Of a stretch of DNA of 64,000 nucleotides, positions 4,450 to 27,930 are shown piece after piece (position 1 is the stretch's first letter; every line of letters starts with the position of its first letter). The notes under the pieces are model-generated. The model saw only the letters and a list, made by a program, of their open reading frames with translations. It ran no database searches and was not told the DNA's origin. Both the position numbers and the translations under genes were made by a program. Source of the stretch: Enterococcus haemoperoxidus ATCC BAA-382 (GTDB taxonomy: Bacteria; Bacillota; Bacilli; Lactobacillales; Enterococcaceae). The stretch is taken from the NCBI RefSeq assembly GCF_000407165.1, contig NZ_KE136480.1, positions 992,001-1,056,000 on the forward strand, written 5' to 3'.

Positions 4450-5280
4450 ATGATGAGTAAAGAAAAAGTAAAAGGTTCTGCAAAAAAAAAGAAAGCGGGA
4501 AAGTCTAACTCTGGTCATACTCATAAAGCTAAAAGTAAAGTAAGAAGGTCTGAATCACCCACTAAAAATGGTGTGGTCAATCGAAAAAAGAAAAAAAAAT
4601 CTCCAATTTCACCTTCAAAAGGACACAGAGTATTTCTCTTTATTTGGAATTTTATTTTCTATGTTTTAATGCTGAGTCTATTGGTAGGTTCCAGCTTAAT
4701 GGCGATGATGCAGCAACAAGATAAAGCATTAAACGGTTATCGAATGTTTGGCGTTTTAACGAACTCAATGGTCTCGCCAGATAATACATTAAAAAATGGT
4801 GGATTTCGAGCTGGAGACATGTTGATTATTAAAGAAGTCGCTGATAATCAAGTAAAAGTTGGGGACGTGATCACTTATCGTCCATCAACGAATCCAACGA
4901 ATAAAAGTACTAATTTTCTAACACATAGAGTGGCGAAAATAGAGGATCACTTAGGCGAAGAAAAAGGTATCTTTTTCACTACTCGGGGAGATGCGAATAG
5001 ATCAGATGATATGCCCATCAGTGCTAGAGCACTAGTTGGGAAAGTAACAGTTCGTGTACCGAAAATCGGTGGCATTTTAGCGTTCGTAAAAGAAAATTGG
5101 TTCATTTCATTAATTTTTATGATTAGTATTATTGGTTTTATATGGGTCATTCGTATTTATATTCTAAACGAATCTGGAAAAACTCATAATCAGAAAAACC
5201 GAAAAGCAAAATCTAAAACGGATATTACCTTATCTAAGGTTAATATAAATAAAACACACACTAGGAGGAAACACGAATGA
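4450..5280 (+). CDS. sipW: SipW-type (ER-like, S26B) signal peptidase
   Basis: A 276-aa membrane-bound signal peptidase of the S26B class, which cleaves TasA/CalY-type precursors in Bacillus. The first 60 residues are a strongly basic Lys/Ser-rich cytoplasmic tail. A TM segment follows (about 61-85), then the catalytic Ser in TNSM (about residue 106), His in LTHRV (about 159) and Asp in GDANRSDD (about 181). This is the Ser-His-Asp set of ER-type enzymes, not the Ser-Lys dyad. A second TM (about 215-238) and a basic tail end the protein. The start could be either of two adjacent ATGs (4450 or 4453) after GAGG. Its TGA overlaps the next gene's ATG (ATGA), so it is translationally coupled to its likely substrate. 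The long basic N-terminal tail is unusual. Confidence 0.88.
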   Translation: MMSKEKVKGSAKKKKAGKSNSGHTHKAKSKVRRSESPTKNGVVNRKKKKKSPISPSKGHRVFLFIWNFIFYVLMLSLLVGSSLMAMMQQQDKALNGYRMFGVLTNSMVSPDNTLKNGGFRAGDMLIIKEVADNQVKVGDVITYRPSTNPTNKSTNFLTHRVAKIEDHLGEEKGIFFTTRGDANRSDDMPISARALVGKVTVRVPKIGGILAFVKENWFISLIFMISIIGFIWVIRIYILNESGKTHNQKNRKAKSKTDITLSKVNINKTHTRRKHE

Positions 5281-6302
5281 AACAAAATAAGAACAAGAAA
5301 AAATGGGTTGTAGCTGCTACAACACTAGCAGCAATAGCTGCTTTAGCAGGAACTTTTGCTTGGTTTACCAGCCAAGATAGCGCAAAAAACCACTTTGAAG
5401 GAAGCATTGCTGGTAGTGACGTAGAAGTAGTCGAAACATTTACACCACCAACTGATTGGAAACCTGGACAAAAAGTGAATAAGGACGTAGCCATTTTAAA
5501 CTCAGGTGATTATGATTCAATGATTCGTGTATCTTTTAATGAAGTTTTAACAAAACTAACAGATGCTTCTTCAAAAACAAGTAATGATGTAACGAATTTA
5601 GATGGAAAAACAAAAGATCAAGTTTATCTATTTCCTTTGAGTAAAACAGAAGGAACGTGGCAAGATGCTAAAGTAGTAGATACTAAAATGACTGTTGCTA
5701 CCGGTGATTATGCTGGAACGTATACATTGAAAGCAAAAGAACAAGTGGTGACAACAGATGCAGGTTCAACATACCGTTATGCCTCTTATTGGGATAATGG
5801 GACAGAACAATACTATGCAAAAGCAGGTTCATATAGCCGTGCAGAAGATGGAATCATTACTCCTTCAACACCAGAATTTAAATATGTTGATCTAGCAGCA
5901 ACTCCAGTGAATATGGACTGGACAAAACCCGTGTACAACCCAACTTTAACAATTGATGCCAATGGTAATGCTACAGTTTTGGCTGGTTCAGATACAGGGA
6001 AACAGATTACATTAGATTTTGTTAATTTATCAGCAACTCCAACAGCGGGTAAATGGTACTATAATGCGAATGATGGCTATTTCTATTATGTAGGAATTGT
6101 AGCATCACAAACGCAAACACCACAATTATTAGACTCAGTTACTTTAGGAAATGGTGCAGATAACAGCTATAGTAAAGTACAATTTGACTTAGTTGTTAAT
6201 TCTTCATCTATTCAAGCAGCAAAAGAGGCAGTGAATAGTGATCAATGGGTAAAAGATACAAATGCTGATTTAAAAACAGCTTTAGAAAGCTTATACAAAT
6301 AA
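5277..6302 (+). CDS. TasA/CalY-like secreted protein with SipW-type signal peptide (341 aa)
   Basis: The N-terminus has a basic stretch, a hydrophobic segment and the SipW-type motif AGTFAWFTSQDSAKNHF, as in TasA and camelysin precursors. The mature part shares two blocks with the proteins at 7325 and 8184: an early one (FTPP-x-DWKPGQ, then a strand ending in IRVSFNE) and a late one (GYFYYVG, then LLDSVTL). In Bacillus, TasA forms extracellular matrix fibres; that role here is inference. It overlaps sipW by 4 bases, and a terminator hairpin lies just downstream, so it may be the most abundant product of the module. AGGAGG lies upstream at 5262-5267. Confidence 0.85.
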   Translation: MKQNKNKKKWVVAATTLAAIAALAGTFAWFTSQDSAKNHFEGSIAGSDVEVVETFTPPTDWKPGQKVNKDVAILNSGDYDSMIRVSFNEVLTKLTDASSKTSNDVTNLDGKTKDQVYLFPLSKTEGTWQDAKVVDTKMTVATGDYAGTYTLKAKEQVVTTDAGSTYRYASYWDNGTEQYYAKAGSYSRAEDGIITPSTPEFKYVDLAATPVNMDWTKPVYNPTLTIDANGNATVLAGSDTGKQITLDFVNLSATPTAGKWYYNANDGYFYYVGIVASQTQTPQLLDSVTLGNGADNSYSKVQFDLVVNSSSIQAAKEAVNSDQWVKDTNADLKTALESLYK

Positions 6303-6366
6303 AAGGTGAAATGAAAAAATAAAATTATAAAATAGAAGCAATTCAATAAGTACATTAATACTAGCT

Positions 6367-6416
6367 GGTTAGTGAGTGATGCATCCAATCATCAACCACT
6401 AACCTGCTTTTGTTTT
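6367..6416 (+). terminator. Terminator after the first TasA-like gene
   Basis: GGTTAGTG (6367-6374) pairs with CACTAACC (6397-6404), with further pairing inside, followed by a T-rich tail. It probably limits read-through from sipW and the first TasA-like gene into the rest of module A. Confidence 0.7.
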
Positions 6417-6592
6417 GAAAAATGAAAAGTGAAGTAATTTGATTACTGACTATTTTCTCTAGCTCTATGGGCTAGTTTCACGGGAAAAGAGAAAACGTGA
6501 TTGGGATAAAAAGCACCGCACTTAATGTTCCTGTTTTTTCAGATGAGGCTAAATGAGCCCATTCCGCTTTTAAATTAGAAAGGAGGCAAAGA
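6417..6592 (+). other. Intergenic leader before the FPSTG-protein gene
   Basis: This stretch holds no gene. ATGGGCT near 6463 can pair with AGCCCAT near 6556, and TTTTCTCT (6450s) with AGAGAAAA (6480s), giving a possible folded leader. A GTGATTGGGATAA-like string near 6496-6510 resembles the left arms of the terminators at 10727 and 62940. I see no clear sigma-A promoter. Confidence 0.35.
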
Positions 6593-7291
6593 ATGACTCA
6601 TAAAAAATGGGTACAAATCTTTTCTCTCTTGTTTTTTGGATTGATAGTCGTAGGATATCCACCCAATCAGGCTTTGGCACAGGAACTTCCAAAAGGAATG
6701 GTTGTTGGCGATGATCAAGGAATCGTTGCTAAGAAAAATGGCGAATACTTAATGGAAGTCAGAGAGGTCATGCCTGGTAAAAAATGGCATACGACCATTT
6801 CGATGGTCAATATGGAAAAAGGAATTCCGTACAGACTTACAATGCTTATTTCACCTCCTGAAGTGTCAGGAAATCTTGATTTATCAAAATCAATCCAAAT
6901 GACATTAACCTACCAAAATAAGCAGGTATATAAGGGACCGATTTCAGGAGTGAGTAGCAAGCTAGATTTACAACGTACACCACTAGACCTAGGCGTCTTC
7001 CAAGCAGGAGATAGCCGAGCTTTGGAAGTGGACTTTTCTTTATCAGGAGAATATACAAATCAAGATTTTGCTGTTAAAAATGTAATGGATAATATTTGGA
7101 CTTTTTATGCTGTGACAACGACAGAACCATCCTCCGGTTCGATAACAGATTCACTAACTCCAAAACAACATGGATTATTTCCTTCAACAGGGGAGGCCAT
7201 GAAGCAAGGGATGATTTTTCTTTGTTTAGGGTTGTTTATTATTCTAATCGTTTTGCTGATTGGAAAAGCAAAACGAAAAGGAAATGAATAA
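6593..7291 (+). CDS. Cell-wall-anchored surface protein with FPSTG sorting signal
   Basis: A 232-aa secreted protein: signal peptide ending near ALAQ (about residue 29), a beta-rich ectodomain, and a C-terminal sorting signal LFPSTGE followed by a hydrophobic helix and the tail KAKRKGNE. FPSTG is a variant of LPxTG, and the sortase A gene at 27193 could process it. It sits between TasA-like genes, so it may anchor a TasA-type polymer to peptidoglycan, in the way TapA serves TasA in Bacillus; that comparison is functional inference, with no sequence similarity seen. The start has AAAGGAGG at 6580-6587. Confidence 0.8.
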   Translation: MTHKKWVQIFSLLFFGLIVVGYPPNQALAQELPKGMVVGDDQGIVAKKNGEYLMEVREVMPGKKWHTTISMVNMEKGIPYRLTMLISPPEVSGNLDLSKSIQMTLTYQNKQVYKGPISGVSSKLDLQRTPLDLGVFQAGDSRALEVDFSLSGEYTNQDFAVKNVMDNIWTFYAVTTTEPSSGSITDSLTPKQHGLFPSTGEAMKQGMIFLCLGLFIILIVLLIGKAKRKGNE

Positions 7292-7324
7292 AAAGTGGCG
7301 GGTCTTAGAAAGTAGGTGATGGAG

Positions 7325-8170
7325 ATGAAAAAAAAGTTAAGATATAAAAAAATAAACTATTTATTAAAAAACAAATGGTTCGTTACGTTATTTACACTTG
7401 GATTTATTGTGAGTGTAACTGCCTTGAGTGAAACATATGCTTGGTTTGAATCATCGGACAATCGCAAAAACTCTTTTGAAGGAACTAAGCTTGTAGCAGA
7501 AATCGATGAGATATTTACTCCAAATAAAGAATGGCAACCAGGTAGTAGAACAACAAAAGAAGTACGTATCAAAAATGTCGGACCTGCTACTGCTTTTGTT
7601 CGTGTCTCTCTTTACGAATTTTTAGCAAGTTTCCAAATAGACGTGACCGACCAAACTGGAAATGGCAATTTAAAAACAGTTGCTACAACAATTCAGCCGA
7701 GTCTAAATGAAGCGAATACTGATACTTGGGAAATAGCAGCTAAAAATCATAGCACGTATACAAGTGCCGGGGAAAATTATGTTACAGATTCAGCGCTAAT
7801 TTCAGATCCATTAAACAATACGGGCATGTATGAATACAATAGTCCTGAAAGAGAAAAATCAGCTTTAAAATACTTGGATTTAAATTTTTCCAAAACATTT
7901 GAAGCAACAATACCAAATGAAACAGGAAAAAAGTGGGTCTATGAGAATGGCTACTTTTATTATTTGAGTCCATTAAAATCTGGAGAATTAAGCGAACCAT
8001 TGCTAGATAGTGTAACTTTATCTGATACACTATCTAATCAATACAAAGGAGCACTTTATAAACTAAAAGTTTATATGGACGCACATGATTTAACACAACC
8101 GCTGATAAATGAATGGCAATTAGACCAGAAAGGTAAGGTTTACCCATTATTAGTCGACCAACTAAAATGA
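7325..8170 (+). CDS. TasA/CalY-like secreted protein with SipW-type signal peptide (282 aa)
   Basis: The N-terminus has a basic segment, a long hydrophobic helix and ETYAWFESSDNRKNSF, the SipW-type leader pattern. The mature protein repeats the FTP-x-x-EWQPG block, the FVRVSLYE strand and the late GYFYYL/LLDSVTL block of the 341-aa paralogue. I chose the third possible start (ATG 7325) because AGGTG at 7314-7318 is best spaced for it; GTG 7316 and ATG 7319 are alternatives. The next gene begins 13 bases after its stop. It is likely a minor or accessory subunit of the same polymer. Confidence 0.82.
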   Translation: MKKKLRYKKINYLLKNKWFVTLFTLGFIVSVTALSETYAWFESSDNRKNSFEGTKLVAEIDEIFTPNKEWQPGSRTTKEVRIKNVGPATAFVRVSLYEFLASFQIDVTDQTGNGNLKTVATTIQPSLNEANTDTWEIAAKNHSTYTSAGENYVTDSALISDPLNNTGMYEYNSPEREKSALKYLDLNFSKTFEATIPNETGKKWVYENGYFYYLSPLKSGELSEPLLDSVTLSDTLSNQYKGALYKLKVYMDAHDLTQPLINEWQLDQKGKVYPLLVDQLK

Positions 8171-8183
8171 GGAGGACGAAAAA

Positions 8184-8807
8184 ATGGAAAATAAACAGCA
8201 GAAAAAATCATTGAAAGTGACATGTCTTTTTTACTCATTCTTCGTTTCTATACTCATACTTGGAATATGGGGAGCTAAAGTGGTATATGCCTCACTAATT
8301 TCAGCCGATCATGTTGTAAACGACTTTCAAGTAAGTGATTTGAAAGGAACGATTAAAGAAGACTTTGTGCCGCCAACCAATGATAATCCAATGAAGCCGG
8401 GAATGAGCTATCCTAAAAAAGTAGCGATAAACAATACAAGTACAACACCATTTTATGTAAGAGTTTTGGTGACTCCAGAAATTCAATCAGCAGATGGAAC
8501 GTTGTTAACTGGTAATATTGGAAAAGAAGTGAGCATTGATTTGGGAGAAGACTGGTTATTAGGTGAAGATGGATATTATTACTATCTAGGAAAAGTTGGG
8601 AAAGGCCAAACCACGTCTCCTTTATTTACCCAAGTAACTTTAGCAGATAATGTAGATGAAGCTTATACTGGTGCGGTTATGCAGATTCATGTTAAAAGCG
8701 AAACGATTATTGCGGGGAAGAAGCAATATAGAGAAGCTTGGTGGGATGGAAGTATCCCGAACACAGGTGTATTGCAGAAGATAGATACTAAATTACAAAA
8801 TTTATAG
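8184..8807 (+). CDS. Short TasA/CalY-like secreted protein (207 aa)
   Basis: The N-terminal hydrophobic segment (about 12-35) ends in VVYASLISADHVVNDF, a degenerate SipW-type leader. The mature part keeps the FVPP-x(5)-MKPG block, the FYVRVLVTPE strand and GYYYYLG followed by FTQVTLAD, so it is a third paralogue of the proteins at 5277 and 7325. The C-terminus contains SIPNTGVLQKI, which resembles an xPxTG core but has no hydrophobic anchor or basic tail after it, so I do not call it a sorting signal. GAGGAGG precedes the ATG. Confidence 0.78.
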   Translation: MENKQQKKSLKVTCLFYSFFVSILILGIWGAKVVYASLISADHVVNDFQVSDLKGTIKEDFVPPTNDNPMKPGMSYPKKVAINNTSTTPFYVRVLVTPEIQSADGTLLTGNIGKEVSIDLGEDWLLGEDGYYYYLGKVGKGQTTSPLFTQVTLADNVDEAYTGAVMQIHVKSETIIAGKKQYREAWWDGSIPNTGVLQKIDTKLQNL

Positions 8808-8825
8808 GAAAGGAGGACAATCATT

Positions 8826-10577
8826 TTGGGAAAAAATATATTTTTGACAATCGCCAAGGCATTTGTATTCTTCAGTGCTTTATTTCTAGTCAGTTTTTTT
8901 ACATCTACAAAGGTATATGGATCGGAAGAGGTTGCAACGATTCCTAAGAGTACAAATTATGTGTACGGATTAACATCTCCCGATGAACAGGACTTCACCG
9001 CTATTTATGCTTATGACATAAATGGATACGACCAAATAGCAAAATATTTCAAAAAAATAACTACGAAGGCTGGTAAAATAGCTGTTATAAAAAATGCTAA
9101 TAATCTAGGTGTTAGAGAAGATGGATTCTATTTTAAAGAAAATACAGGGATTAAAATGTATCATGTGGATTGGGACGGGATTATTCAAGAAACTTGGGAT
9201 GATCCTAGTTTGACTGGAAGTGCTCGGTCAGGTACTTTTCTTACAACTGGAAAATATGTTACTACATCAGATCAGTTAAGTAACAAAAAAAATGAACTCT
9301 ATATTTATGATATAAATTATCATATGCTGGAAAAAAAGGTTCCATTGACCAATAAAACTGATATACCTTTACCTGTCAGTAAGTTGAATAGTATGGGAGA
9401 TATCGTAGGTGATGCAGATGATTATTTATATGCCACTATTTCTGAGGCAAAATTATCTTCTACAACAGTGTTAAAAATAGATAGCAATAATGGGGATATA
9501 GTAGATATCTTACCTGTACCTGGATTACAGCATAGTCCAGCTATTGCTTTTATGGAAGATGGCCGATTATTACTTGCAGACAAGAATGATACAGGTGCTA
9601 TAGTCGATTTTTCAACTGGTCTTGTAACTTATACTGACAAGATAGGTGATAAATTACCTGCGATGGGCGGAACTCAATCACATGTTAGGGACTTTGCATC
9701 ACTGAATTTCCCTTCATTTAATGTTGAGTTATTTGCAATTAAGCAAGGCCCAGAGACAGCGGTCTATGGAGAAGAATATGAATATACAATTAAGGTTTCC
9801 AATACAGGGAATATTATGTCTTTACACAATACCTTGATAGATTCTCTATCTAATTACTTAGAGTATGTACCTAATTCAACTTTATTAAATGGGAATAAAG
9901 TTGTTGACGTAAATGGTACTAGTCAGATGTTTTTAGGCGGAATGAAAATTGAATCTCCAGGCGGTGTTGAGGGTGCAATTACCAAAGATAAGCCAGCGGT
10001 TATAACCTTTAAAGTAAAAGTGAAAGACACTGGTGATACAACAGTTGGGATTGATATTCCAAATATTGCCTACATCGCTAATACTAGTACTAATTTAGTG
10101 AGTACAAATAAGGTTATTACTAAAGTGCCTGGCATTCCTATATCAGAATATATATTAAATCTGTATATCAAACAGGAAGTGCTTAATAGTCGTTTAGATT
10201 TAGTTTCACCGTCAATTGGGTTTGCAGATGTCAAAAATAATTTCGATCAATATCAGTTGACGATTCCCTCGTATCTGAGCGATACGAATCAGGCTTTCAA
10301 GTTTGTTAAAATCAAAGTAGCTGATATGAATGATCCTTACAACGTTAGTATCAAGATACCTGAGTTCTATTCCTACGCAGGTTATCAACTAACAGCAACA
10401 AAATCGAATCATCTTGCTTCTAATAGAATGAAGACTCCAATTGAATCAATCGATCCTTCTAAAGGATTAGATCGTTGGCTAACAGTGTATATTGAACCTA
10501 AACTATTTGCCGATGCACCTCCATTTTATAGTTGGGATTATAAAAACAATGATTTTGGTAAGATAGGTATCGAGTAG
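8826..10577 (+). CDS. Secreted DUF11-type surface protein, TTG start, probable premature stop
   Basis: A 583-aa secreted protein beginning at TTG after AAGGAGGA (8811-8818). A signal peptide (about 1-33) precedes a region with repeated DxxLYAT- and MEDGRLLLAD-like strands, suggesting a beta-propeller. Around residues 300-430 lies a DUF11/conserved-repeat domain (YTIKVSNTG, LEYVPNSTLLNG, ITFKVKVKDTG), common in Gram-positive surface proteins. No sorting signal or TM helix ends it. The frame is open for 25 more codons beyond the TAG, so the C-terminus looks shortened by a nonsense change. It is the last gene of module A. Confidence 0.75.
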   Translation: MGKNIFLTIAKAFVFFSALFLVSFFTSTKVYGSEEVATIPKSTNYVYGLTSPDEQDFTAIYAYDINGYDQIAKYFKKITTKAGKIAVIKNANNLGVREDGFYFKENTGIKMYHVDWDGIIQETWDDPSLTGSARSGTFLTTGKYVTTSDQLSNKKNELYIYDINYHMLEKKVPLTNKTDIPLPVSKLNSMGDIVGDADDYLYATISEAKLSSTTVLKIDSNNGDIVDILPVPGLQHSPAIAFMEDGRLLLADKNDTGAIVDFSTGLVTYTDKIGDKLPAMGGTQSHVRDFASLNFPSFNVELFAIKQGPETAVYGEEYEYTIKVSNTGNIMSLHNTLIDSLSNYLEYVPNSTLLNGNKVVDVNGTSQMFLGGMKIESPGGVEGAITKDKPAVITFKVKVKDTGDTTVGIDIPNIAYIANTSTNLVSTNKVITKVPGIPISEYILNLYIKQEVLNSRLDLVSPSIGFADVKNNFDQYQLTIPSYLSDTNQAFKFVKIKVADMNDPYNVSIKIPEFYSYAGYQLTATKSNHLASNRMKTPIESIDPSKGLDRWLTVYIEPKLFADAPPFYSWDYKNNDFGKIGIE

Positions 10578-10726: not shown

Positions 10727-10770
10727 GTGACTGGGATAATGCTCTTAGCGTTATCCCAGTCACTTTTTTT
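10727..10770 (+). terminator. Strong terminator closing module A
   Basis: A 13-bp stem, GTGACTGGGATAA (10727-10739) with TTATCCCAGTCAC (10751-10763), is followed by seven T. The arm and flanking TTTTATGTGA resemble the terminator at 62940, suggesting a repeated terminator cassette. Confidence 0.92.
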
Positions 10771-10833: not shown

Positions 10834-10898
10834 ATTTCAAAAAAAACGGAAAAATAAGTATTTTTTGTAATTGTTATTTAAATTTAAAAGATATAATT
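10834..10898 (+). promoter_or_regulatory. Promoter block conserved between the two module regulators (copy 2)
   Basis: The block repeats the one at 3458: TTTCAAAAAAAACGG, then an A/T stretch, TTTTTTGTAATT and AAAAGATATAATT. TATAAT lies at 10892-10897, again with a poor -35 (AATTGT). Conservation outside coding sequence between two paralogous loci points to a shared activator. The rest of 10656-10956 shows only the terminator. Confidence 0.55.
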
Positions 10899-10956
10899 GT
10901 GTAATGAAAACAAAGAAGTTGGGGTAAGCAAAACTAAAAATAGAAAGGAAAATGAT

Positions 10957-11679
10957 ATGTACAACATAGGAATCATACAAGAAAAAGAACAAAAAGTTAA
11001 TACATATTCTGGAAACTTAAATATGAAGACGTATCGTTTATATTCTTTAAAAAATGAAGATGTTTTTAAAGAAGCTTTAAAAATGGATGCGTTGATAATT
11101 GAAGAGTCGACAGCTGTGGATTTAAAAGGGACTTGTGAATTAATTCTAGAACTCAGACGTAATTTTAAATCATTGATTTGGATCATGTGTAAAAGAATGT
11201 CTCAAACCAATAAGATTGTATATCTTCAGTTAGGGGCTGATGGAGTATCTGGTGAAGAAGAACAGGAAGAAGCGATTCTTCAATTTTCAAATATATTAAA
11301 TAGAATAAAAAACGAACGTGAAAATTTAGACGAAACAGTGACTTATGGACAAGAGAAGGTAAATAATAGGCATCTGGAGTTGGTTCAAAATAATTTAAGT
11401 ATTATTTTGGCAGGCAAAGAGATTAGTCTTACTAGATTGGAATTTCAAACGATCACATTCTTATTAGAACACATTGGAAAAGCAGTCACGTATGAAGAAC
11501 TTTATAAGAACGTTTGGCAAAATGATTTTGGTAATGAGAAAAAAGGGACGAAACAATATCGAATTAGTAATTTGATTTTCCTTTTGCGCAAGAAATTAGA
11601 AATAGATCCAGCTCAACCAAGTTATATTAAAACAATTCGTTCGAAAGGGTACATGTTTGTTGATGGTAACAAAGTTTAG
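10957..11679 (+). CDS. OmpR/PhoB-type winged-helix regulator, paralogue (module B)
   Basis: A 240-aa paralogue of the 3631 protein, nearly collinear: MYNIGII start, MDALIIEES, a CELILELRR segment, YLQLGADGV, then the C-terminal winged helix (ISLTRLEFQTITFLLEHIG, VTYEELYKNVW, YIKTIRSKGYMF). The frame is open upstream to 10897, but the ATG at 10957 has GAAAGGA and matches the paralogue's start. It precedes the WxL module as its sister precedes the SipW/TasA-like module. No partner kinase is visible. Confidence 0.8.
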   Translation: MYNIGIIQEKEQKVNTYSGNLNMKTYRLYSLKNEDVFKEALKMDALIIEESTAVDLKGTCELILELRRNFKSLIWIMCKRMSQTNKIVYLQLGADGVSGEEEQEEAILQFSNILNRIKNERENLDETVTYGQEKVNNRHLELVQNNLSIILAGKEISLTRLEFQTITFLLEHIGKAVTYEELYKNVWQNDFGNEKKGTKQYRISNLIFLLRKKLEIDPAQPSYIKTIRSKGYMFVDGNKV

Positions 11680-11865
11680 GCAAAATATGTTATGGCAGTT
11701 GGTTTATGAAATACATAAGTGAGAGTTTTGGAAATAAAGTTGATTTCCTTTTTTCATTGATATAGCCCAACAATTATCTAGTTTTATTGAGACTATACAA
11801 GAAAAAATCGAAATAAATGTGTTTTACTTTGAAATACAAAAGACTAGCAAGAAAGGAGGAAAAAG

Positions 11866-19208: not shown

Positions 19209-19880
19209 ATGATGAGTGCAACCAAGTCAAAATCGAACCCTTCATCTCAAGCTTTTCCTGTGAAAAAGATTAGTTCAAAAAAAATAAAACAACGATCTAA
19301 ATATCCAAGTAAAACGTTCAAAAGGAAAAAAAAGCGACATTCAAGAAGAAAAATAGTGAAAGAGCTGTATCAAACTTTTAGTATATTCTTTGCTCTTTTG
19401 CTACTAATACAAAAAATGACAATTGCTTTACCAAAAGTTGAGGGATATTCTATGATTCCAACATTAGTGGATGGAAATCGTGTGGTTGTTAATAAGTTTG
19501 GTCAGGTGAAAAGATTCAAACTCATTTATTTTAAAGATACAACAGGAAAAATAGGCGCGGTTCGTAGAATAATCGGAATACCAGGTGATCGAATCAAGTA
19601 TAAGAATGATCAATTGTGGATTAACGAACAAGAAGTAGTTGAACGGTTCTTGGAAAACTCAGTACATAAAGTTCAAGAGTCTACAATGAAATTTACAGAC
19701 GACTTTACATTGATCCAAGCAATTGGAGTAGAAGCTGTTCCGATGGGGAAATATTTTGTCATGGGAGATAATCGACCTTTTGCAACAGATAGCCGAGTCT
19801 ATGGTCTAATCGATGAAAGTCAGGTCGTTGGAACGGCAGAATGGTTGCTGTTTCCGCTGCGTAAATTAGACTATTTTTAA
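19209..19880 (+). CDS. Type I signal peptidase homologue with Arg at the catalytic Lys position
   Basis: A 223-aa S26A-family protein: basic cytoplasmic tail (about 1-52), one TM (about 53-72), the Ser motif GYSMIPT (Ser about 81), the box-D region AVRRIIGIPGD (about 117-127) and the late GDNRPFATDSR box. Active enzymes read VKRxIGxPGD; here the general-base Lys is Arg (codon CGT, about residue 119). Loss of that Lys normally abolishes activity in the family. It may be an assembly factor, as with inactive SipA-type homologues in streptococcal pilus loci. The neighbouring paralogue keeps both residues. Confidence 0.88.
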   Translation: MMSATKSKSNPSSQAFPVKKISSKKIKQRSKYPSKTFKRKKKRHSRRKIVKELYQTFSIFFALLLLIQKMTIALPKVEGYSMIPTLVDGNRVVVNKFGQVKRFKLIYFKDTTGKIGAVRRIIGIPGDRIKYKNDQLWINEQEVVERFLENSVHKVQESTMKFTDDFTLIQAIGVEAVPMGKYFVMGDNRPFATDSRVYGLIDESQVVGTAEWLLFPLRKLDYF

Positions 19881-19914
19881 CAGTATTTTATTTTTATAGA
19901 AAAGAAGGAGCGCT

Positions 19915-20586
19915 ATGGCTGAGACAAAAAGGAAACCGTCGAGAAAGCTTATTTCAGTTTCCAAACGTAGAAAAGTTAAACTTAAAAAGAAACTATTTGT
20001 AAAAAAGCAGTCACAAGAAATACAACCCAAACGAATAGTAAAGAGATCACGATTGTTCTTCGTTGGGGGAATATGTGTAGTTGTTCTTTTTGTGTTAATT
20101 CGAATGACTGTGCGTAGAGTAGATGGACAATCAATGGATCCAAATTTAGCAAATAGCGATCGAGTTTTGGTTTTCAAAGATAGTCAACCAAAGCGCTATA
20201 ATATCATAACATTTCGTCCGAAAGGAAAGCCAAATGAATCGTATGTTAAAAGAGTAATCGGCATTCCAGGGGATGCGATTTGGATGGACAATAATACGTT
20301 GTATATCAACCATCAATTGGTCAGTGAAACAGAGCGGCCATTAACGAATAGTAATCTTTTAGGTAGAAAATTACCTGACGGTACCATCAAAGTTTGGTTG
20401 AATCAAAAATTGATCAAAGAGTTTGCTGGTAAACAGATGATTCCAGAGAATAAGTATTTTGTTTTAGGGGATAATCGTAATCATTCATCTGATAGCCGAG
20501 TCTTTGGCTTGGTGGATACTTCTCAAATAGAAGGTGTTGTTAAGTGGCGTTACTATCCATTTAATAAGATTGGAACAATAGATTAA
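19915..20586 (+). CDS. Type I signal peptidase (S26A), catalytic residues intact
   Basis: A 223-aa paralogue of the preceding protein: basic tail (about 1-45), one TM (about 46-66), DGQSMDPN with catalytic Ser about 73, YVKRVIGIPGD with catalytic Lys about 112, and GDNRNHSSDSR. It should remove ordinary signal peptides outside the membrane, probably those of the WxL and anchored proteins. GAAGGAG precedes the ATG. Unlike SipW (Ser-His), it belongs to the bacterial Ser-Lys class, so the whole locus carries three signal-peptidase-like genes. Confidence 0.92.
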   Translation: MAETKRKPSRKLISVSKRRKVKLKKKLFVKKQSQEIQPKRIVKRSRLFFVGGICVVVLFVLIRMTVRRVDGQSMDPNLANSDRVLVFKDSQPKRYNIITFRPKGKPNESYVKRVIGIPGDAIWMDNNTLYINHQLVSETERPLTNSNLLGRKLPDGTIKVWLNQKLIKEFAGKQMIPENKYFVLGDNRNHSSDSRVFGLVDTSQIEGVVKWRYYPFNKIGTID

Positions 20587-20621
20587 GTAAATCGAGTGGG
20601 ACAATATGAAACGAGGCTATT

Positions 20622-23213
20622 ATGAATAAAGCAATAAAACAATTTGTTAAAGATGAGGCATGGAGTCTGTTTATGAGTATCATGATTCCAATCATTATTT
20701 TAGGTGTTATTTATTATCAAAATGGAATCTATCTAGGTAGTGAAAAGACAGTTTTAGCTAGTGATGCCTACCCACAACTTTCTAATTTTTTAGCGAGTTT
20801 TCACAACGTTATGCATGGTAAGCAAAGCATTTTCTATACATGGTATGGTTCATTGGGACTTAATTATTGGTCATTAGCTGCTTACTACTTGAATGGGATC
20901 TTTACACCGCTAGTTTATTTTTTTAAGAATGAAGCCATCGCGGATACATTTTACTTACTGACATTACTCAAATTTGGTGCGATTGGCGGTAGCTTTTGGC
21001 TCTTTGCTAGGCAAACCTTTGATCTTTCTAAATGGTTATTAGCAGGTTTGAGTATTAGTTATGCTTTAATGGGGTTTTCTGTAGCATACTCTCCAATGTT
21101 GATGTGGTTGGATGCAATAATGTATCTGCCATTAGTGATTCTGGGAATTCATCGCTTGATGGATAAACGTAAATCGGGCGTATTATTTGTTAGCTACCTT
21201 TTATTGTTTTTATCTAATTTTTATTTAGCTTTTATGATTGGTGTTTTTTCTTTTCTCTATTACTGGGTAAGATATGGTACTGATCCAACTAGGTATAAAG
21301 CAAGTATTTTGTTATATTTAGTCACTGCTATTCTTGCGGGAACAGCTTCAATGATTACAGTTATCCCAACGGTCATTGATTTAAGTAGTAATGGCGAAAC
21401 ACTAAGCGAAATCAGTCAATTTTTAACGCCTGATACGGGTCCGTGGGATTTGGTCGTAAAAAGTATGATTGGCACATATGATACAGCTAAATATAATGGT
21501 GCTCCGTTTATATACATAAGTTTGCTTTTTCTTTTGTTTGCCGGTGTTTATTTTTTCAGTAAAAGAATTAATTTACGAAACAAACTACTCTACGGTACGT
21601 TATGTTTATTTTTAGTATTGAGCATCTATATTCAGCCACTGAATTTATTTTGGCATGGTCTACATGCACCGAATATGTTGCTGTTCCGCTTTAGCTTTTT
21701 GCTTTCGTTTCTATTATTGACTCTTTCTGCGTATGGGTTGGAAGTACTTGAACAAGAGGCGGTTGATTCCTTGTTAAATAGCGCTATTTTGTTATTAGGC
21801 TTATTTTTAGCAGCGTTTTTACTGGCCAATAGAAAACGGTATGATTATTTTTCAGGAAGAAATGTACTGATTACGTTAGGTTTTATTAGTGCGTATTTTA
21901 TATTATCCTACTTATTAGTCAAAAAAAGGGGCTGGAAACAGTTTATTTTTATCGCGATGTTGCTACTCGTTATTTGTGAAATGACTTTTAATAGTCACGC
22001 AATGATTCAGGGAATAGCGAAAGACTGGGTTTATCCAGAACGAAGAGGATACACGCAAAAATATCATGAGATTCAAACGCTAGTTGATCAAACGAAAAAA
22101 GATCAGTCTGTGAGTTGTCGAATGACTAATCTAGACCCCATTAGTGTGAACGAAAGTTTTAATTTTGGCTATAGTGGTGTTTCTATGTTTTCTTCTATTC
22201 GAAATCGTCATTCGTCAATGTATTTAAATGAGCTAGGTTTTCGTTCAGAAGGGACAAATTTAAATATCAATTATTCCAATAATACACTGATTATGGACTC
22301 TGTATTAGGGATTCAGTATAATCTGGCAAAAAATAATCCTAATAAATTTGGTTTTACAAAAGAAGCACAAAGTGGAGAGTACGGGTTATATAAAAATGAG
22401 TATGCATTACCACTAGGAATAGTGACAGATAAAGGAATTTATGCCGATGGAGCGGTACATAATCAGACAACTTTACTTGATTATCTAGCCGAAAGTCAGA
22501 CGACATTTGTATCTTTTACTGAACCCAAAGAAATCAGTCATGAAAATGTCTTGATTCAAGAAGAAGGACCTGTAGTCTATTATTCAGAAGAAACACCGCA
22601 GGCCAAGAAAATTATGAATTGGTCAATTTCAATCCCAGCACATACTCAGGCCTATTTAAGTTTGTATGACGTAAATGATTACTCTGTTGCATTCAAAACA
22701 AAAGTGGAAATAACAGTTGAAAATGAAGCTGCACGAGTGTATCAAATGAAGGATGTCGGACAATATTATGATCTGGGGAATTATGAAAAAGCAAAGATGA
22801 TCCAGGTTAAAGTAGTTTTTTCTGGTTCACCGTTAGTCAGTATTTTACGACCGGATGTTTTATTACTTGATACGGAGGCTTTTAAAACAACCATTGAAAA
22901 GATCAAAAAAAAGGGTGTTGCATTTGAGACGAGTGGACGAAAAGCCAAGGCTGAAGTCACGCTTGATAAAGAACAAGTGATAGTAACTACGATTCCTTAT
23001 GATCAAGGGTGGTCGGTCAAAATTGATGGAAAAAAAACAGACGTCATCCAGTTTAAAGAGGCTTTCTTAAGCGTTACTGTACCGCAAGGCAAACACACGA
23101 TTGAATTTGTTTTTCTGCCTAAAGGCTTTAAAGCTGGTAGCATTTTGTTTGGTGGAAGTCTAACAATTTATGCCTGTTTTTATTGGTATAAAAGAAGGGA
23201 TAGGATTAATTAA
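20622..23213 (+). CDS. YfhO-family polytopic membrane protein
   Basis: An 863-aa protein with about a dozen TM helices in the first 450 residues and one near the end (about 838-857), with a large extracytoplasmic beta-rich domain between. DAYPQLSNF near residue 50 and FNFGYSGVSMFSS are typical of YfhO. YfhO-type proteins are linked to glycosylation of teichoic acids or surface polymers; the donor and acceptor here are unknown. Its stop overlaps the next start by one base (TAATG), so it is in one operon with the two lipoproteins. It may decorate wall polymers or the secreted fibre proteins. Confidence 0.82.
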   Translation: MNKAIKQFVKDEAWSLFMSIMIPIIILGVIYYQNGIYLGSEKTVLASDAYPQLSNFLASFHNVMHGKQSIFYTWYGSLGLNYWSLAAYYLNGIFTPLVYFFKNEAIADTFYLLTLLKFGAIGGSFWLFARQTFDLSKWLLAGLSISYALMGFSVAYSPMLMWLDAIMYLPLVILGIHRLMDKRKSGVLFVSYLLLFLSNFYLAFMIGVFSFLYYWVRYGTDPTRYKASILLYLVTAILAGTASMITVIPTVIDLSSNGETLSEISQFLTPDTGPWDLVVKSMIGTYDTAKYNGAPFIYISLLFLLFAGVYFFSKRINLRNKLLYGTLCLFLVLSIYIQPLNLFWHGLHAPNMLLFRFSFLLSFLLLTLSAYGLEVLEQEAVDSLLNSAILLLGLFLAAFLLANRKRYDYFSGRNVLITLGFISAYFILSYLLVKKRGWKQFIFIAMLLLVICEMTFNSHAMIQGIAKDWVYPERRGYTQKYHEIQTLVDQTKKDQSVSCRMTNLDPISVNESFNFGYSGVSMFSSIRNRHSSMYLNELGFRSEGTNLNINYSNNTLIMDSVLGIQYNLAKNNPNKFGFTKEAQSGEYGLYKNEYALPLGIVTDKGIYADGAVHNQTTLLDYLAESQTTFVSFTEPKEISHENVLIQEEGPVVYYSEETPQAKKIMNWSISIPAHTQAYLSLYDVNDYSVAFKTKVEITVENEAARVYQMKDVGQYYDLGNYEKAKMIQVKVVFSGSPLVSILRPDVLLLDTEAFKTTIEKIKKKGVAFETSGRKAKAEVTLDKEQVIVTTIPYDQGWSVKIDGKKTDVIQFKEAFLSVTVPQGKHTIEFVFLPKGFKAGSILFGGSLTIYACFYWYKRRDRIN

Positions 23214-24202
23214 TGAAAAAGAAACATCGTTTTATTCTTTTGATGATTCCGTTGAGTATCTTCTTTTTATTTGGGTGTTCAAAAGAAGTAATTGAAACAA
23301 ACAAACAAACAATTGAAGGTGAAGGCTTGACTTATCATTTACAACTTCCTAGAGGATGGAAAAAACAAGCAAATTATCAAACAATATATGGCCGTCAATC
23401 CGCTTTTGGAGCAGAAGATACTAAGAGTAAATCAGGGATGTCGGTTTTACTTTTTCCTAAAGAAGGGGTAGACCAAAAAGGGTTTGGCGAACGGACTAGA
23501 AAAGAATTGGCAGAGAAAAATAACTATAAAAAAGTTGATGGAGTGTATCTAAAAGAGTATACGATCAATGAAGCACCAGCTTATAAATTTACATTTGAAA
23601 CAAGATTTGGAGACCAGAAGGTTTGGTCGCATTTCTATGCTATTTTTACAAAAAATGGTGTGATCGAAGTGATGTTTTATTCCGCACAAGATACAGCGTA
23701 TAAAGAACGGGCTAAATTAATCGATGCTTCGATGGATACAGTGAAGGAAATCGCCTATGATGAAGTAGCGAATTCAGCTAAAGATGAAGAGAACTCAGAC
23801 AAAATAGAAGTTGAAAATAACGAACTTTCTGCTGTGATCACAGGGATTCGAACGATTTCAGGAAAACATGCAGAGAAAATTTTTGTACTGCGCTATCAAT
23901 TAACAAATCTAAGTGATCAAGTAATCAAACCTGTTGAGTGGCAAAAGTTTATCGAGCTGAAGCAACAAGGAGTTCTTTTAGAAAAAGCAACCTTGCCAGA
24001 AAGTACGACTTCTTTTGATACTAAAGAATTAGTAGACGCTGGTGAAAAAGAGCTGAACAAAGGAGAATCAGTTGAGTCAGTCCTGCTCTACAGGTTACCT
24101 GAGATAGTTAATATCCAACTTACATTTGATTCAACGCATTTTCCTAGACAAAAAACGTATACCTTACTTTTATCAAATAAAGAGGAGAAAAATAACGAAT
24201 GA
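23213..24202 (+). CDS. Lipoprotein with C-terminal DUF5067-like domain
   Basis: A 329-aa lipoprotein. The lipobox is LFGC (Cys about residue 22). A middle domain (about 35-180) has a PsbP/DUF-like beta pattern. The C-terminal part (about 200-320) has the DUF5067/DUF4352-like Ig pattern (VLRYQLTNLSDQVIKPVEW). It should be on the outer face of the membrane. It overlaps both neighbours by a few bases. Function unknown. Confidence 0.75.
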   Translation: MKKKHRFILLMIPLSIFFLFGCSKEVIETNKQTIEGEGLTYHLQLPRGWKKQANYQTIYGRQSAFGAEDTKSKSGMSVLLFPKEGVDQKGFGERTRKELAEKNNYKKVDGVYLKEYTINEAPAYKFTFETRFGDQKVWSHFYAIFTKNGVIEVMFYSAQDTAYKERAKLIDASMDTVKEIAYDEVANSAKDEENSDKIEVENNELSAVITGIRTISGKHAEKIFVLRYQLTNLSDQVIKPVEWQKFIELKQQGVLLEKATLPESTTSFDTKELVDAGEKELNKGESVESVLLYRLPEIVNIQLTFDSTHFPRQKTYTLLLSNKEEKNNE

Positions 24203-24927
24203 AAAGAGTAGCCATTGTTTTAGCAGTCTCATTACTTGCCATCATCGGTTGTACAGTCAAAGAAGATGGGACTAGTTCGTTGCGTAAAACCGATAGGCAG
24301 TATGTTTTGTATAAAGAACGAACGAAAGGATTTGGTAACTATGATTATCCAAACTTAAAAGAAACCGAAGCCGAAAAGCTGTTGACTGAAAAGTTTCAAT
24401 TAGAACTGCCAACTCTGTACAACGAGATTCAACCGATTATAGAAAAAGAGTTGGAAGGAAATGATATTAAAGCTACCAAACCAGTTTTTCAATTATTTGT
24501 CCAACCAACACAAGTGGTATTTACAAGAATGACTTCGTACGAGAAAAATAATCGACCTTATATTCATACAAAAATAGAGCTAAAATATTTTTTTGATGAT
24601 GGAAAGAAAGTAGCGAAATTAAACAATCAGACTGTCATGCTGATCAATCAAACTACAGAATCAAAGGCTCTCTCTGAGAAGCTTCCGTTATTTACAAAGG
24701 AAGTTGGTAAAATGATTAATCTGAATGGACTAGAACAAGGATTGAGTAATTATGAAAAAAAAGTTCAAGCGTCAAAAGGTTTAATAGTTCAACAAGCAAT
24801 ATCTATCGCTGATAATAATAAAGAAGCGAAGAAAGAGAAAGGGTTGTTGAAATCTATACAAGTTTCGTATGATGAACACGGCATTTTACGAGAATTGTAT
24901 GGGAACATAGCTGATATAACAGAATAG
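24199..24927 (+). CDS. Lipoprotein of unknown function
   Basis: A 242-aa lipoprotein with lipobox AIIGC (Cys about residue 18). The mature part is lysine/glutamate-rich and mixed alpha/beta; I recognise no family. It starts within an ATGA overlap with the preceding lipoprotein gene, so the two are co-translated, and it ends the long module B transcript just before a structured terminator. Confidence 0.72.
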   Translation: MKRVAIVLAVSLLAIIGCTVKEDGTSSLRKTDRQYVLYKERTKGFGNYDYPNLKETEAEKLLTEKFQLELPTLYNEIQPIIEKELEGNDIKATKPVFQLFVQPTQVVFTRMTSYEKNNRPYIHTKIELKYFFDDGKKVAKLNNQTVMLINQTTESKALSEKLPLFTKEVGKMINLNGLEQGLSNYEKKVQASKGLIVQQAISIADNNKEAKKEKGLLKSIQVSYDEHGILRELYGNIADITE

Positions 24928-24948
24928 GTAGTGACTGAAAGCAAGATA

Positions 24949-25010
24949 AACATATCTAGTGTTGAAAGCTAATTAGTGCTTTCAAAGTACCCGTAAGAGG
25001 TATGTTTTTC
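24949..25010 (+). terminator. Branched terminator after module B
   Basis: AACATATCT (24949-24957) pairs with AGGTATGTT (24998-25006), enclosing a second hairpin TTGAAAGC/GCTTTCAA (24962-24985), followed by TTTT. This nested form is less common than a simple hairpin. Confidence 0.55.
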
Positions 25011-25077
25011 TCGCATATATTCTAGTTTAAGAATGAAGTAAGCTTGTTTCGTTTTACTTGTTTACATGGAGGAAATA

Positions 25078-26766
25078 ATGGGGGAATTTAAAAATAATAG
25101 TAGAATACTTGTGCTTAGTAAACGACCATTGTTACTATATTATAGTGTATTTCTATTATTGAGCTTTTTTAGCATCTATTTTGTAATGATTCAAAACCGG
25201 CAATTGTTTTATGGCGATGATCTAGGGTTTCATTTAGGCAGAATCGAAGGTGTGGCAATAGCATTTATAAAAGGGGACTATTTTCCTAGAATCAATTATT
25301 TTCTTACAGGGGGAATGGGCTACGCTACGGGGATTTTTTATCCAGAAATATTTTTATATCCAGCAGCATTATTACGAATCTCTGGCGTATCGTTAATACA
25401 TAGTTATGTTATTTACGTATTTCTAATTAATTTTTTGACTTTTGTAATTGCCTACCATTCCTTTGATTATTTGAAACAAGCGCCCAGAAAAAGTCTACTT
25501 TTTGCAGTGTTGTATGGTTTATCAGCTTATCGTTTATCTGATGTATTGTATCGTGCTGCGGTAGGTGAGTATTTAGCCTTAATGGTGCTACCTTTTGTTT
25601 TTGTAGGAATTCACTTGATTATATTTGATTCATATAAAAAATGGTATGTACTATCAATTGGTATGGCTACTTTATTTATGGCTCATTTGTTAAGTAGTGG
25701 GATTATGATACTATTTATTTTTAGTTTGCTTATTTGTAACTGTGTCCGTTTGTGGCATGAAAAAATCCGACTTATTGCGTTATTCAAAGCTGCGGGAGTA
25801 ACGATTCTATTAGTCGCAGTTTTTCTTTGTCCAATGATTGAACAACTGAGCTTTCAGCATTTACGTGTTCAAGATACGCCCATGTTCTATTTACAAAAAA
25901 TGGCTGAAACGCCACTGAACTATTTAGAGACGGCAGTTAAAAATATTCGGTTTAATAATATTGGTTTACTTGTTTTGTTTTTTTTGATTTTATTAGCAAT
26001 TTGCATGATAAAACTTTCAAGTGAAAATAAACAATTAATAGGAATCAGTCTGCTATTTTTTTATGCTTCAACAAGTTTTTTTCCACATTGGCTTTTTCAC
26101 GAAACGTTATTCAATTCGATTCAATTTCCATGGCGCTACTTCATGATTGTCACGTTTGGTGTACTGTGGGTATTGGCTGACAGTTTAGATCGGTTAGTTG
26201 CCAAACGACAGGGAGCAAAAGCGGTTCTTTATATTTTATTGTTTGTAGTTACGCTTTTTAGTACATTTGATATGGAACAAAAACTTAAACGTAGTACAAG
26301 GGCGACTGTTGACTATAGTTATTTTGAGCAAGTGGACGGCAGTAAAGAACTTGGATTTGGTGAAGAATTTTTACCTAGTGGTATGGAAAATTGGATGGCA
26401 CCCACAGGTCTCTTATCCGAACCTACTACTATTAAAATAAGGAATATGTCTCGCTCCTATAGCACGTTTTTTTTAGATTATGAAGCACCAGAAATGACCA
26501 ATTTAATTTTTCCACTTATCTACTATAAAGGGTATGAAGTAAAAATAGAAGGAGGAGGAACGGTTAGTAAAGTACATGATGCTGGACGTTTTAAAGACGG
26601 AAATATGCATGGCTTTGTGGAAGTTACAGTGGTAGGCAATGGGAAATTAACGCTTTGGTATGCAGGAACTTTCGTTCAAAAAATGTCTTTTTTGGTAACC
26701 TCAATCGCTTGGGTGGGGATGATAGGTGCTCTTCTATGGAGTAAAAAAACAGAAATGAAATCTTAG
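25078..26766 (+). CDS. Large polytopic membrane protein, YfhO/glycosyltransferase-like
   Basis: A 562-aa protein with about 11-12 TM helices and a short C-terminal extracytoplasmic beta domain before a last TM (about 535-553). GDDLGFHLGRIEG near residue 50 resembles the first-loop acidic motif of GT-C-type and YfhO-like membrane proteins. I start at ATG 25078, since GGAGG (25068-25072) fits it and overlaps the alternative ATG at 25066. It parallels the YfhO protein at 20622 in layout and may act on the same surface polymer. Substrate unknown. Confidence 0.7.
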   Translation: MGEFKNNSRILVLSKRPLLLYYSVFLLLSFFSIYFVMIQNRQLFYGDDLGFHLGRIEGVAIAFIKGDYFPRINYFLTGGMGYATGIFYPEIFLYPAALLRISGVSLIHSYVIYVFLINFLTFVIAYHSFDYLKQAPRKSLLFAVLYGLSAYRLSDVLYRAAVGEYLALMVLPFVFVGIHLIIFDSYKKWYVLSIGMATLFMAHLLSSGIMILFIFSLLICNCVRLWHEKIRLIALFKAAGVTILLVAVFLCPMIEQLSFQHLRVQDTPMFYLQKMAETPLNYLETAVKNIRFNNIGLLVLFFLILLAICMIKLSSENKQLIGISLLFFYASTSFFPHWLFHETLFNSIQFPWRYFMIVTFGVLWVLADSLDRLVAKRQGAKAVLYILLFVVTLFSTFDMEQKLKRSTRATVDYSYFEQVDGSKELGFGEEFLPSGMENWMAPTGLLSEPTTIKIRNMSRSYSTFFLDYEAPEMTNLIFPLIYYKGYEVKIEGGGTVSKVHDAGRFKDGNMHGFVEVTVVGNGKLTLWYAGTFVQKMSFLVTSIAWVGMIGALLWSKKTEMKS

Positions 26767-26910: not shown

Positions 26911-27132
26911 ATGAAGCGTTTATTTAAATCAGTTGTGTTTGAGATGAGTCTGTATTATGCAGTGTTAGCAGTTGTGTTGCCGTTGATTTATGCAGTGACG
27001 TATCACGTCTCTTATCTATCTGTTTTTAGCGCTGAATGGTTTGCTGTGACAGTGTTCATGTATCCAATTGTACTTGTCTTGTCAGCAATTCGTTATGGTT
27101 ATGGACGTATGAGAAAGACTAGTCACTTCTAA
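26911..27132 (+). CDS. Small two-TM membrane protein (73 aa)
   Basis: Two hydrophobic helices (about 10-30 and 38-60) with a short basic tail (YGYGRMRKTSHF). ATG 26911 has GGGG upstream at a normal spacing; an in-frame TTG at 26896 is the alternative. I recognise no family. It lies between the second polytopic protein and convergent srtA and is followed by a bidirectional terminator. Confidence 0.55.
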   Translation: MKRLFKSVVFEMSLYYAVLAVVLPLIYAVTYHVSYLSVFSAEWFAVTVFMYPIVLVLSAIRYGYGRMRKTSHF

Positions 27133-27141
27133 ATGAAATTG

Positions 27142-27186
27142 AAATAGGCTAGGACAGAAGTGCTCACTTCCATCCTAGCTTATTTT
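27142..27186. terminator. Bidirectional terminator between the surface locus and srtA
   Basis: The imperfect stem AATAGGCTAGGACAGAAGTG (27143-27162) pairs with a complementary arm from 27166 (ACTTCC, then TCCTAGC and TATTTT to 27186). It serves both convergent genes. Confidence 0.8.
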
Positions 27187-27192
27187 GAAATT

Positions 27193-27930
27193 CTATAAGG
27201 TTAATTGTTCCATATTAAACGCATCGGTCATAGCTGGTGTTGCTTCTTTCATTGGTGTAACAGATTCTAATTCACCTTGAACGGCGATTCGTGTTGTAGC
27301 GTACATGTCACCACATGTGATCAACGTGATCATTTTCTTGCCTGGAACGTCATCAATCAGTTCTACTCTGGAAGGATCGATTTTTTCAACATAAGTGATT
27401 TTATATGTATAAACATTATTTAAATCAGTCGTATAAATCAATTCTCCTGGTTTTGAATATTCCAACGGTGAGAATAATGAAATCATATCCTGTACACGGT
27501 GGCTAGCAAGGGCATAATTGCCTTTGCCCATTTCTTGATCGGGTTTCATTGTTCCTGCACCAGTTAGTAAAACAACATTGTCCAACCCTCTAAAAATCGG
27601 TAAGTTGATTTTTACATCGGGGAGTGCGACAGCACCAACAACAGGTAGGTTTTTATTTGCAAGTTGAGCTTTTAAGACAGCTTCTGTGCTCAAAGATTCA
27701 ACTGCTTCAAAATCAAAAGAAGTATCCGTTTGATTATTTTTAGCCACGATCTCAGGTGTTAACTTTTCTACAGCATAAGCTTTACCATTTTGCTGAATTA
27801 GCATATTTCTGATTTGTGTATTAAAAACTAGCGCTAAACCAACGATTAGTAATAAGAATAGGAAGATATTAATCAGCCAATTTCTTTTTCTAGATTTTTT
27901 CTTTTTAGGACGTTCTTTTCTTGAGGCCAT
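27193..27930 (-). CDS. srtA: Class A sortase
   Basis: A 245-aa membrane-anchored transpeptidase that joins LPxTG-type proteins to peptidoglycan. A basic start, one TM (about 18-38), then the catalytic set: His about 144 (ALASHR), Cys about 206 (LITCGD) and Arg about 214 (TTRIAVQG). The spacing and text match E. faecalis SrtA closely. AAGGAGG precedes the start. As the general housekeeping sortase it is the likely enzyme for the FPSTG and YPSTG proteins upstream. No pilus-type class C sortase is present, so the TasA-like proteins are not expected to form sortase-built pili. Confidence 0.93.
   Translation of the reverse strand: MASRKERPKKKKSRKRNWLINIFLFLLLIVGLALVFNTQIRNMLIQQNGKAYAVEKLTPEIVAKNNQTDTSFDFEAVESLSTEAVLKAQLANKNLPVVGAVALPDVKINLPIFRGLDNVVLLTGAGTMKPDQEMGKGNYALASHRVQDMISLFSPLEYSKPGELIYTTDLNNVYTYKITYVEKIDPSRVELIDDVPGKKMITLITCGDMYATTRIAVQGELESVTPMKEATPAMTDAFNMEQLTL

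Follow-up and report, generated by a model that had tools for sequence, protein, structure and literature searches.

Positions 4450 to 27930 of a 64,000-nucleotide stretch of the Enterococcus haemoperoxidus ATCC BAA-382 genome (RefSeq assembly GCF_000407165.1, contig NZ_KE136480.1, positions 992,001 to 1,056,000; hereafter, the window) hold two adjacent systems, not one. The left half (4450–10577) is, in our assessment rather likely, a copy of a modular cassette for a surface fibre, with genes in the order SipW, Tas1, Lpx, Tas2, Tas3 and a large last gene. The right half (10897–26766) is, on balance, a WxL–Lep–YfhO locus of a type common in the genus and not part of the fibre machine. The source genome measures 3.58 Mb and the stretch studied here lies on its contig 2; features are on the forward strand unless stated otherwise. 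An initial annotation of this DNA had read both halves as one combined SipW/TasA-like and WxL surface-assembly locus.

Gene order and distribution of the cassette

Matches to TIGR04090 identified four loci in the E. haemoperoxidus genome, all of them ordered SipW, Tas1, Lpx, Tas2, Tas3 and a large last gene. Among these copies the best match of each gene was its positional counterpart, with two exceptions: in the copy labelled L011, Tas1 scores slightly higher against the adjoining Tas2, and the last genes do not match one another, except for those of the window and L014, which match over their ends. A scan of named genomes confirmed 194 loci, 80 of which were retained, among them 20 from Enterococcus and Vagococcus; SipW, Tas1, Lpx, Tas2 and Tas3 were present in all 20, with the last two genes swapped in one locus and the last gene absent from one.

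Gene order was then compared across 62 cassettes, 46 from the same genus and 16 from five other genomes of the family (12 of these 16 from a single genome). The exact six-gene order was found in 51 of the 62 and one further cassette has the same order with a split Tas2; the remaining deviations in order are four cassettes that lack Tas2 and one in which the last two genes are swapped. The conserved end domain of the last gene went undetected by the order script in five cassettes, of which two were of the L011 type and were recovered by an improved model of that domain, one spanned a locus boundary and one lay at a contig end; no explanation was found for the fifth (L193). Adjacency of the cassette genes by chance is ruled out by an order conserved across many genomes.

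Among 22 same-genus genomes, 21 have Lpx, with 46 copies in total (a count that excludes eight short matches covering the anchor end only). It is also present in 30 of 105 genomes from the family, one of which has as many as 16 copies, and in 34 of 395 Lactobacillales genomes, spread over 10 of 80 sampled genera. The cassette is strongly expanded in three genomes from one other genus of the family (G027, G035 and G033, genus g3), which have 16, 12 and 8 Lpx matches, respectively; the 12 of G035 were covered by the order comparison above. The fourth E. haemoperoxidus cassette lies in a 22-kb stretch (G000:C1:1158000-1179964, comprising L011 and the start of L012) that is 98.9% identical to E. 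plantarum LMG 26214 (G010), the next homologous stretches showing 78–86% identity; this is a sign of recent transfer. In E. sulfureus (G082), genes resembling an accessory Sec locus come after the cassettes L235 and L192, the first of these genes being, to judge by eye, presumably SecY2-like.

SipW and the Tas subunits

The first cassette gene (4450–5280) encodes a SipW-like signal peptidase of the endoplasmic reticulum (ER) type, as the initial annotation had proposed. The protein scores 70.9 bits against TIGR02228 (cut-off 51.85) and 44 bits against the SipW equivalog NF046067, under the cut-off of 190. Ser106 and His159, which we take to be the ER-type dyad, are invariant across the four E. 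haemoperoxidus copies (alignment A1). The peptidase is encoded together with its putative substrates, and the three TasA-like proteins named earlier fared unequally: Tas1 (5277–6302) and Tas2 (7316–8170) are BsaA-family subunits with 116 and 85 bits against TIGR04090 (cut-off 60), Tas1 also passing the cut-off of TIGR04088 with 20.2 bits, and the third, the shorter BsaA-like Tas3 (8184–8807), stays under the TIGR04090 cut-off with 50 bits. The Tas3 profile matches Tas1 over 77 columns.

Tas1, probably the major subunit, carries a SipW-type signal peptide and, because T26-F27-A28 is invariant in 20 sequences (alignment A5), is predicted to be cut after Ala28, leaving an N-terminus that begins with WF. 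An AlphaFold model of Tas1 (mean predicted local distance difference test, pLDDT, 82.3; predicted template modelling score, pTM, 0.73) has a confident beta-rich body and disordered residues 1–46, which correspond to the signal peptide and the segment that follows it; disorder at this end would fit a free, unpaired donor strand. The link between Tas1 and TasA is indirect, running via an intermediate profile: the Tas1 profile matches a BsaA/TasA-like profile with a probability of 99.8%, and that profile finds TasA at an E-value of 8e-4.

Lpx, a candidate wall anchor

Lpx (6593–7291) is a secreted protein with a C-terminal FPSTGE sorting signal, together with a membrane segment and a basic tail (alignments A2 and A4). 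It was one of the sortase-type anchors reported earlier and has these hallmarks, with sub-threshold scores against the corresponding families (Gram_pos_anchor 17.7 bits, cut-off 20; EF0750 family 31.6 bits, cut-off 47); the other such anchor, at 15204–15584, lies in the right half and exceeds its cut-offs. As a [LFY]PxTG sorting signal is present in all 62 Lpx copies and the signal peptide is, by eye, of the ordinary type, the simplest reading is that sortase A attaches Lpx to the wall, Lpx being the probable wall anchor of the fibre.

The last gene and its C-terminal domain

The last gene of the window cassette (Big, 8826–10577), which the initial annotation had passed over, encodes a secreted protein with a variable head that includes a DUF11-type repeat (TIGR01451 37.9 bits, above cut-off), a conserved C-terminal (CT) domain and no LPXTG signal. 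Last genes are the most variable members of the cassette and encode proteins of 539–2351 residues, one cut piece aside. Eight of these proteins were scanned with Pfam, two of them yielding no match at all, and their heads include a VWA domain with a GBS104-like Ig domain (L014), an L-type lectin with SpaA (Enterococcus sp. DIV0212c, G004), RCC1 repeats (L032) and the DUF11-type head of the window.

What last genes share is a stretch of about 160 C-terminal residues, the CT domain (alignment A6; about 10077–10574 in Big), which in Vagococcus fluvialis (L017) is followed by a YusW-like stretch. The CT part matched no Pfam family in the eight scanned proteins, no NCBIfam family in 17 of 18 members (the other member giving an implausible match to acetate–CoA ligase, E 1e-4) and gave no credible match to solved structures. 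The 21 of 22 same-genus genomes that have Lpx are also those that have CT, and all 46 same-genus Lpx genes lie within about 10 kb of a CT match; these pairings were mapped by eye from two tables, and the A6 model was partly built from same-genus genomes. CT was not found at 60 more distant SipW loci, and none of 76 CT-bearing open reading frames (overlap duplicates and cut frames included) has a terminal LPXTG signal.

The best indication of a plug-in adhesin comes from the orthologous place in Enterococcus sp. DIV0212c, where the remaining cassette genes are 67–84% identical to those of the window and the last gene, with its lectin–SpaA head, matches that of the window over the end domain only (49% over 148 residues); by this comparison, the head has been exchanged and the end domain retained.

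Two CT proteins of about 1000 residues have no Lpx nearby (G009:C1:3597051 and G008:C2:329011) and may be orphan adhesins that serve fibres encoded elsewhere; one further CT match is a fragment. Loci L018–L025, L027, L029 and L034 have a second large gene behind the cassette, the end of which is, by eye, prealbumin-repeat-like and not CT-like.

Terminator, regulators and the WxL half

Between the two halves lies a probable Rho-independent terminator (10727–10763), consisting of a 17-pair stem with a 3-base loop, followed by seven T; because of this stem and its T run, transcription of the left half probably stops before the right half starts. The stem scan recovered six sites, against 4.0 ± 1.8 in shuffled sequences, and the other five sites have 5–10 pairs. 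The WxL half is probably a separate transcription unit with its own regulator. Paired OmpR-type winged-helix regulators—like the stem, absent from the initial annotation—stand ahead of the two halves, one each: reg1 (3631–4356) and its paralogue reg2 (10897–11679). A Pfam search of reg1 (E ≤ 0.1) gave Trans_reg_C only, and at this threshold no receiver domain was found in the N-terminal part of reg1 or reg2; weak NCBIfam matches of reg1 to full-length response regulators are all far under cut-off. The nearest paralogue of reg1 in its own genome is reg2, at 58% identity, others reaching 48% over part of their length or at most 44%. A reg1-type regulator also adjoins some cassettes. Across the genome, 24 of 35 matches to the reg1 family lie within 10 kb of a gene for WxLIP (DUF916–DUF3324), and 30 of 39 WxLIP places have one.

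Behind reg2 come a large WxL-type protein of 1108 residues (11866–15192; MucBP and a WxL-like C-terminus, both sub-threshold, WxL with 17.3 bits against 25), a small LPXTG protein of the EF2685/EF0750 family (15204–15584; NF053819 71.6 bits, cut-off 47; Pfam anchor cut-off also passed), a WxL-domain protein (15571–16377; PF13731 120 bits) and a secreted protein that is possibly a divergent WxL protein (16410–17249; 25% identity to its neighbour over 128 columns, E 0.005). The initial annotation had counted three WxL proteins, of which the one at 15571–16377 is above the Pfam cut-off, the large one falls short of it and the one at 16410–17249 has no WxL match. Next follow the WxLIP gene (17434–18504; PF11797 148 bits, PF06030 117 bits), in agreement with the DUF916 protein reported earlier, a small membrane protein of the WxL locus (18525–19190; no family above cut-off) and the two bacterial type I signal peptidases already recognised (19209–19880 and 19915–20586; PF10502 132 and 139 bits). 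A YfhO-family, PgfM-like membrane protein (20622–23213; PF09586 678 bits, NF047589 far under cut-off) precedes two lipoproteins (23213–24202, with a DUF5067 match, and 24199–24927; lipobox by eye) and a polytopic membrane protein (25066–26766; by eye), which had been taken for a second YfhO-like protein and has no match in Pfam or NCBIfam. The gene called srtA does encode a sortase (27193–27930, reverse strand; PF04203 82 bits), probably the housekeeping SrtA.

Tested as a WxL cluster, the right half has its WxLIP, with PF06030 and PF11797 both above cut-off; the genome as a whole has 40 WxLIP matches at 39 places. YfhO is part of a recurrent type of WxL locus: of its 116 matches in the genus, at least 86 have a WxLIP no more than 6 kb away. 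The terms ‘WxL’ and ‘YfhO’ were not found together in the literature searched, which included few subscription papers. A glycosylation role for the YfhO protein would be a guess, prompted by its sub-threshold similarity to PgfM. Elsewhere in the window, two secreted proteins (42431–43996 and 63197–63835 (-)) have HGYV after the signal peptide and are, by eye, putative chitin-active proteins resembling lytic polysaccharide monooxygenases.

Linkage between the two halves

WxLIP genes in cassette flanks were sought with a home-made hidden Markov model (E ≤ 1e-8) and not with the Pfam model. Of the 46 same-genus cassettes, 4 had a WxLIP within 20 kb (1 of 4 in the E. haemoperoxidus genome and 3 of 42 in other genomes, three of these 42 having shortened flanks), against 3 of 20 random places, one of which overlapped a cassette. 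On this comparison, a joined SipW–TasA/WxL machine is rejected as a rule. In E. haemoperoxidus the four cassettes stand 11.3, 23.5, 34.6 and 76.8 kb from a WxLIP, and 28% of the bases of the genome, or 44% of those of the window's contig, are within 20 kb of one.

The adjacency itself is real and is retained in E. moraviensis ATCC BAA-383 (G008), which is 98% identical to the window across 26.6 kb, and in Enterococcus sp. DIV0212c, with the last two cassette genes swapped. Two of the three WxL-flanked cassettes in other genomes are orthologous to that of the window; the WxL locus beside the third (G021) is a different one, in the same orientation and with a WxLIP that is 40% identical. In a tree built from SipW, Tas1, Lpx and Tas3, in which support values were not considered, the cassettes of the window, G008, G004 and G021 group with that of E. 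sulfureus, which has no WxLIP in the 30 kb examined. Linkage of cassette and WxL locus characterises one branch and may matter there, yet the cassette probably works independently of it; in this branch the WxL locus may be co-regulated with the cassette through the paired regulators.

The combined locus of the initial annotation survives as a neighbourhood and not as a general arrangement. Its suggestion that the fibre is anchored via WxL proteins is unsupported as a rule, given an LPXTG protein within the cassette, the terminator-like stem and 42 of 46 cassettes without WxLIP nearby, and a search of gene order in enterococci finds the modules regularly apart, an outcome that the annotation had itself named as speaking against it.

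Proposed assembly and alternatives

We favour, with moderate confidence, a donor-strand fibre that is anchored to the wall via Lpx and presents interchangeable adhesins, its assembly and docking being predicted from the genes. SipW would trim Tas1–3 and so free an N-terminal strand (WF..S.DS..NHF in Tas1); Tas1, with Tas2 and Tas3, would, like TasA, polymerise through exchange of donor strands; Lpx, with an ordinary signal peptide for its export, would be fixed to peptidoglycan by sortase A and would hold the fibre on the wall; and the last protein would dock on the fibre through its C-terminal domain and present an interchangeable binding head. Some observations weigh against this. Fold comparison of Tas1 yields middling beta-sandwich matches, a profile built without Bacillaceae gave no match linking Tas1 to TasA, and BsaA of Clostridium perfringens is found mainly in the medium, which indicates loose attachment in that species (PMC7395162). 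The first of these points would also suit Tas1–3 being non-fibrous surface or matrix proteins, with the last gene an unrelated secreted enzyme or adhesin. We regard that as unlikely, given the co-occurrence of CT with Lpx in 46 of 46 cases and the filaments formed by the relative BsaA (PMC7395162).

The relation between the halves leaves room for two further explanations. That the whole of 4450–27930 is one machine, a SipW–TasA fibre built on the wall through WxL proteins, would accord with a neighbourhood kept in three species, with four WxL-flanked cassettes in one branch (including the different WxL locus in G021) and with reg1 and reg2 being, seen from reg1, closest paralogues at 58% identity. 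Such a machine is nevertheless very improbable: no WxLIP was found within 20 kb of 42 of the 46 same-genus cassettes (three flanks being shortened), only 1 of 39 WxLIP places in the E. haemoperoxidus genome is within 20 kb of a cassette, a strong terminator-like stem separates the modules, the cassette brings its own LPXTG partner, and E. sulfureus, from the same branch, lacks a WxLIP in the 30 kb examined. Chances are slightly better than even that these are unrelated surface loci, chance neighbours in one lineage and merely regulated alike, which is compatible with the wall-anchored fibre proposed here. WxLIP genes are no more frequent near cassettes (4/46) than at random places (3/20), 44% of the contig lies within 20 kb of one, and regulators of the reg1 family stand beside both kinds of locus; what mere chance explains less well is that the four cases cluster in one branch, in the same orientation and with two different WxL loci.

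If the wall-anchored fibre is real, fibres of the TasA/BsaA type would not be limited to the biofilm matrix of bacilli and clostridia: in enterococci and related bacteria they would also form an organelle that is anchored to the wall and carries adhesins with an exchangeable head. Adhesins of this kind could be traced by sequence through CT, and Lpx would offer a testable answer to the question of how these fibres stay on the cell.

Comparison with known systems

Class C sortase pili, such as Ebp of E. faecalis, are surface fibres that, like the one proposed here, come with a wall anchor and an adhesin of the VWA type. Unlike them, the window cassette contains no sortase match (Pfam, NCBIfam), and its Tas1–3 have no sorting signal and no match to an anchor family (sequences, Pfam, NCBIfam); polymerisation should therefore not be of the class C type, and a class C sortase pilus is rejected.

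The right half resembles WxL clusters with WxLIP (PMC10599100) in its genes for a large, sub-threshold WxL-type protein, a small WxL protein and WxLIP, and differs from them in adding two Lep peptidases and YfhO. The cassette resembles tapA-sipW-tasA of Bacillus subtilis and sipW-tasA/calY of B. cereus (PMC9674648, PMC10151520, PMC13082335) in its putatively SipW-dependent subunits and in a candidate accessory anchor or nucleator. TasA is a beta-sandwich whose N-terminal donor strand completes the following subunit (PMC9674648), an arrangement that Tas1 may have too. In the Bacillus systems, by contrast, the accessory protein is TapA or CapP, and the accessible text of the three papers mentions neither LPXTG nor a variable adhesin gene.

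The sipW-bsaABCRSD operon of C. perfringens (PMC7395162) likewise begins with a SipW-type peptidase, followed by a BsaA-family subunit and more secreted genes. The neighbouring srtB is not needed for BsaA polymers (PMC7395162), as expected if the sortase anchors rather than polymerises. Compared with this operon, enterococcal cassettes add Tas2, a recognisable Lpx sorting signal and the variable-head CT protein, and the window cassette contains no two-component pair. Genes for SipW, BsaA-like, Lpx-like and Tas3-like proteins are consecutive in two clostridial loci (L038 and L040). In the latter, from C. sardiniense, sipW, the BsaA-like, Lpx-like and Tas-like genes, a VWA protein and a class B sortase stand in a row, and the Lpx-like protein has PAQTG in place of LPXTG, a layout that suggests the same division of labour as in the enterococcal cassette. 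Lpx probably corresponds to bsaB, to judge from these clostridia other than C. perfringens.

The core of the cassette is thus a relative of known SipW–BsaA/TasA systems. No description of the LPXTG partner, of a variable-head last gene with CT or of a spread through Lactobacillales was found in the literature searched, as far as it was accessible. We tentatively suggest, at somewhat less than even odds, that the cassette is a Gram-positive counterpart of tip-adhesin pili in which no pilin-polymerising sortase takes part: a donor-strand fibre processed by SipW, with one LPXTG anchor and a CT domain that would dock any head, whether VWA, lectin or RCC1-type, onto a conserved fibre.

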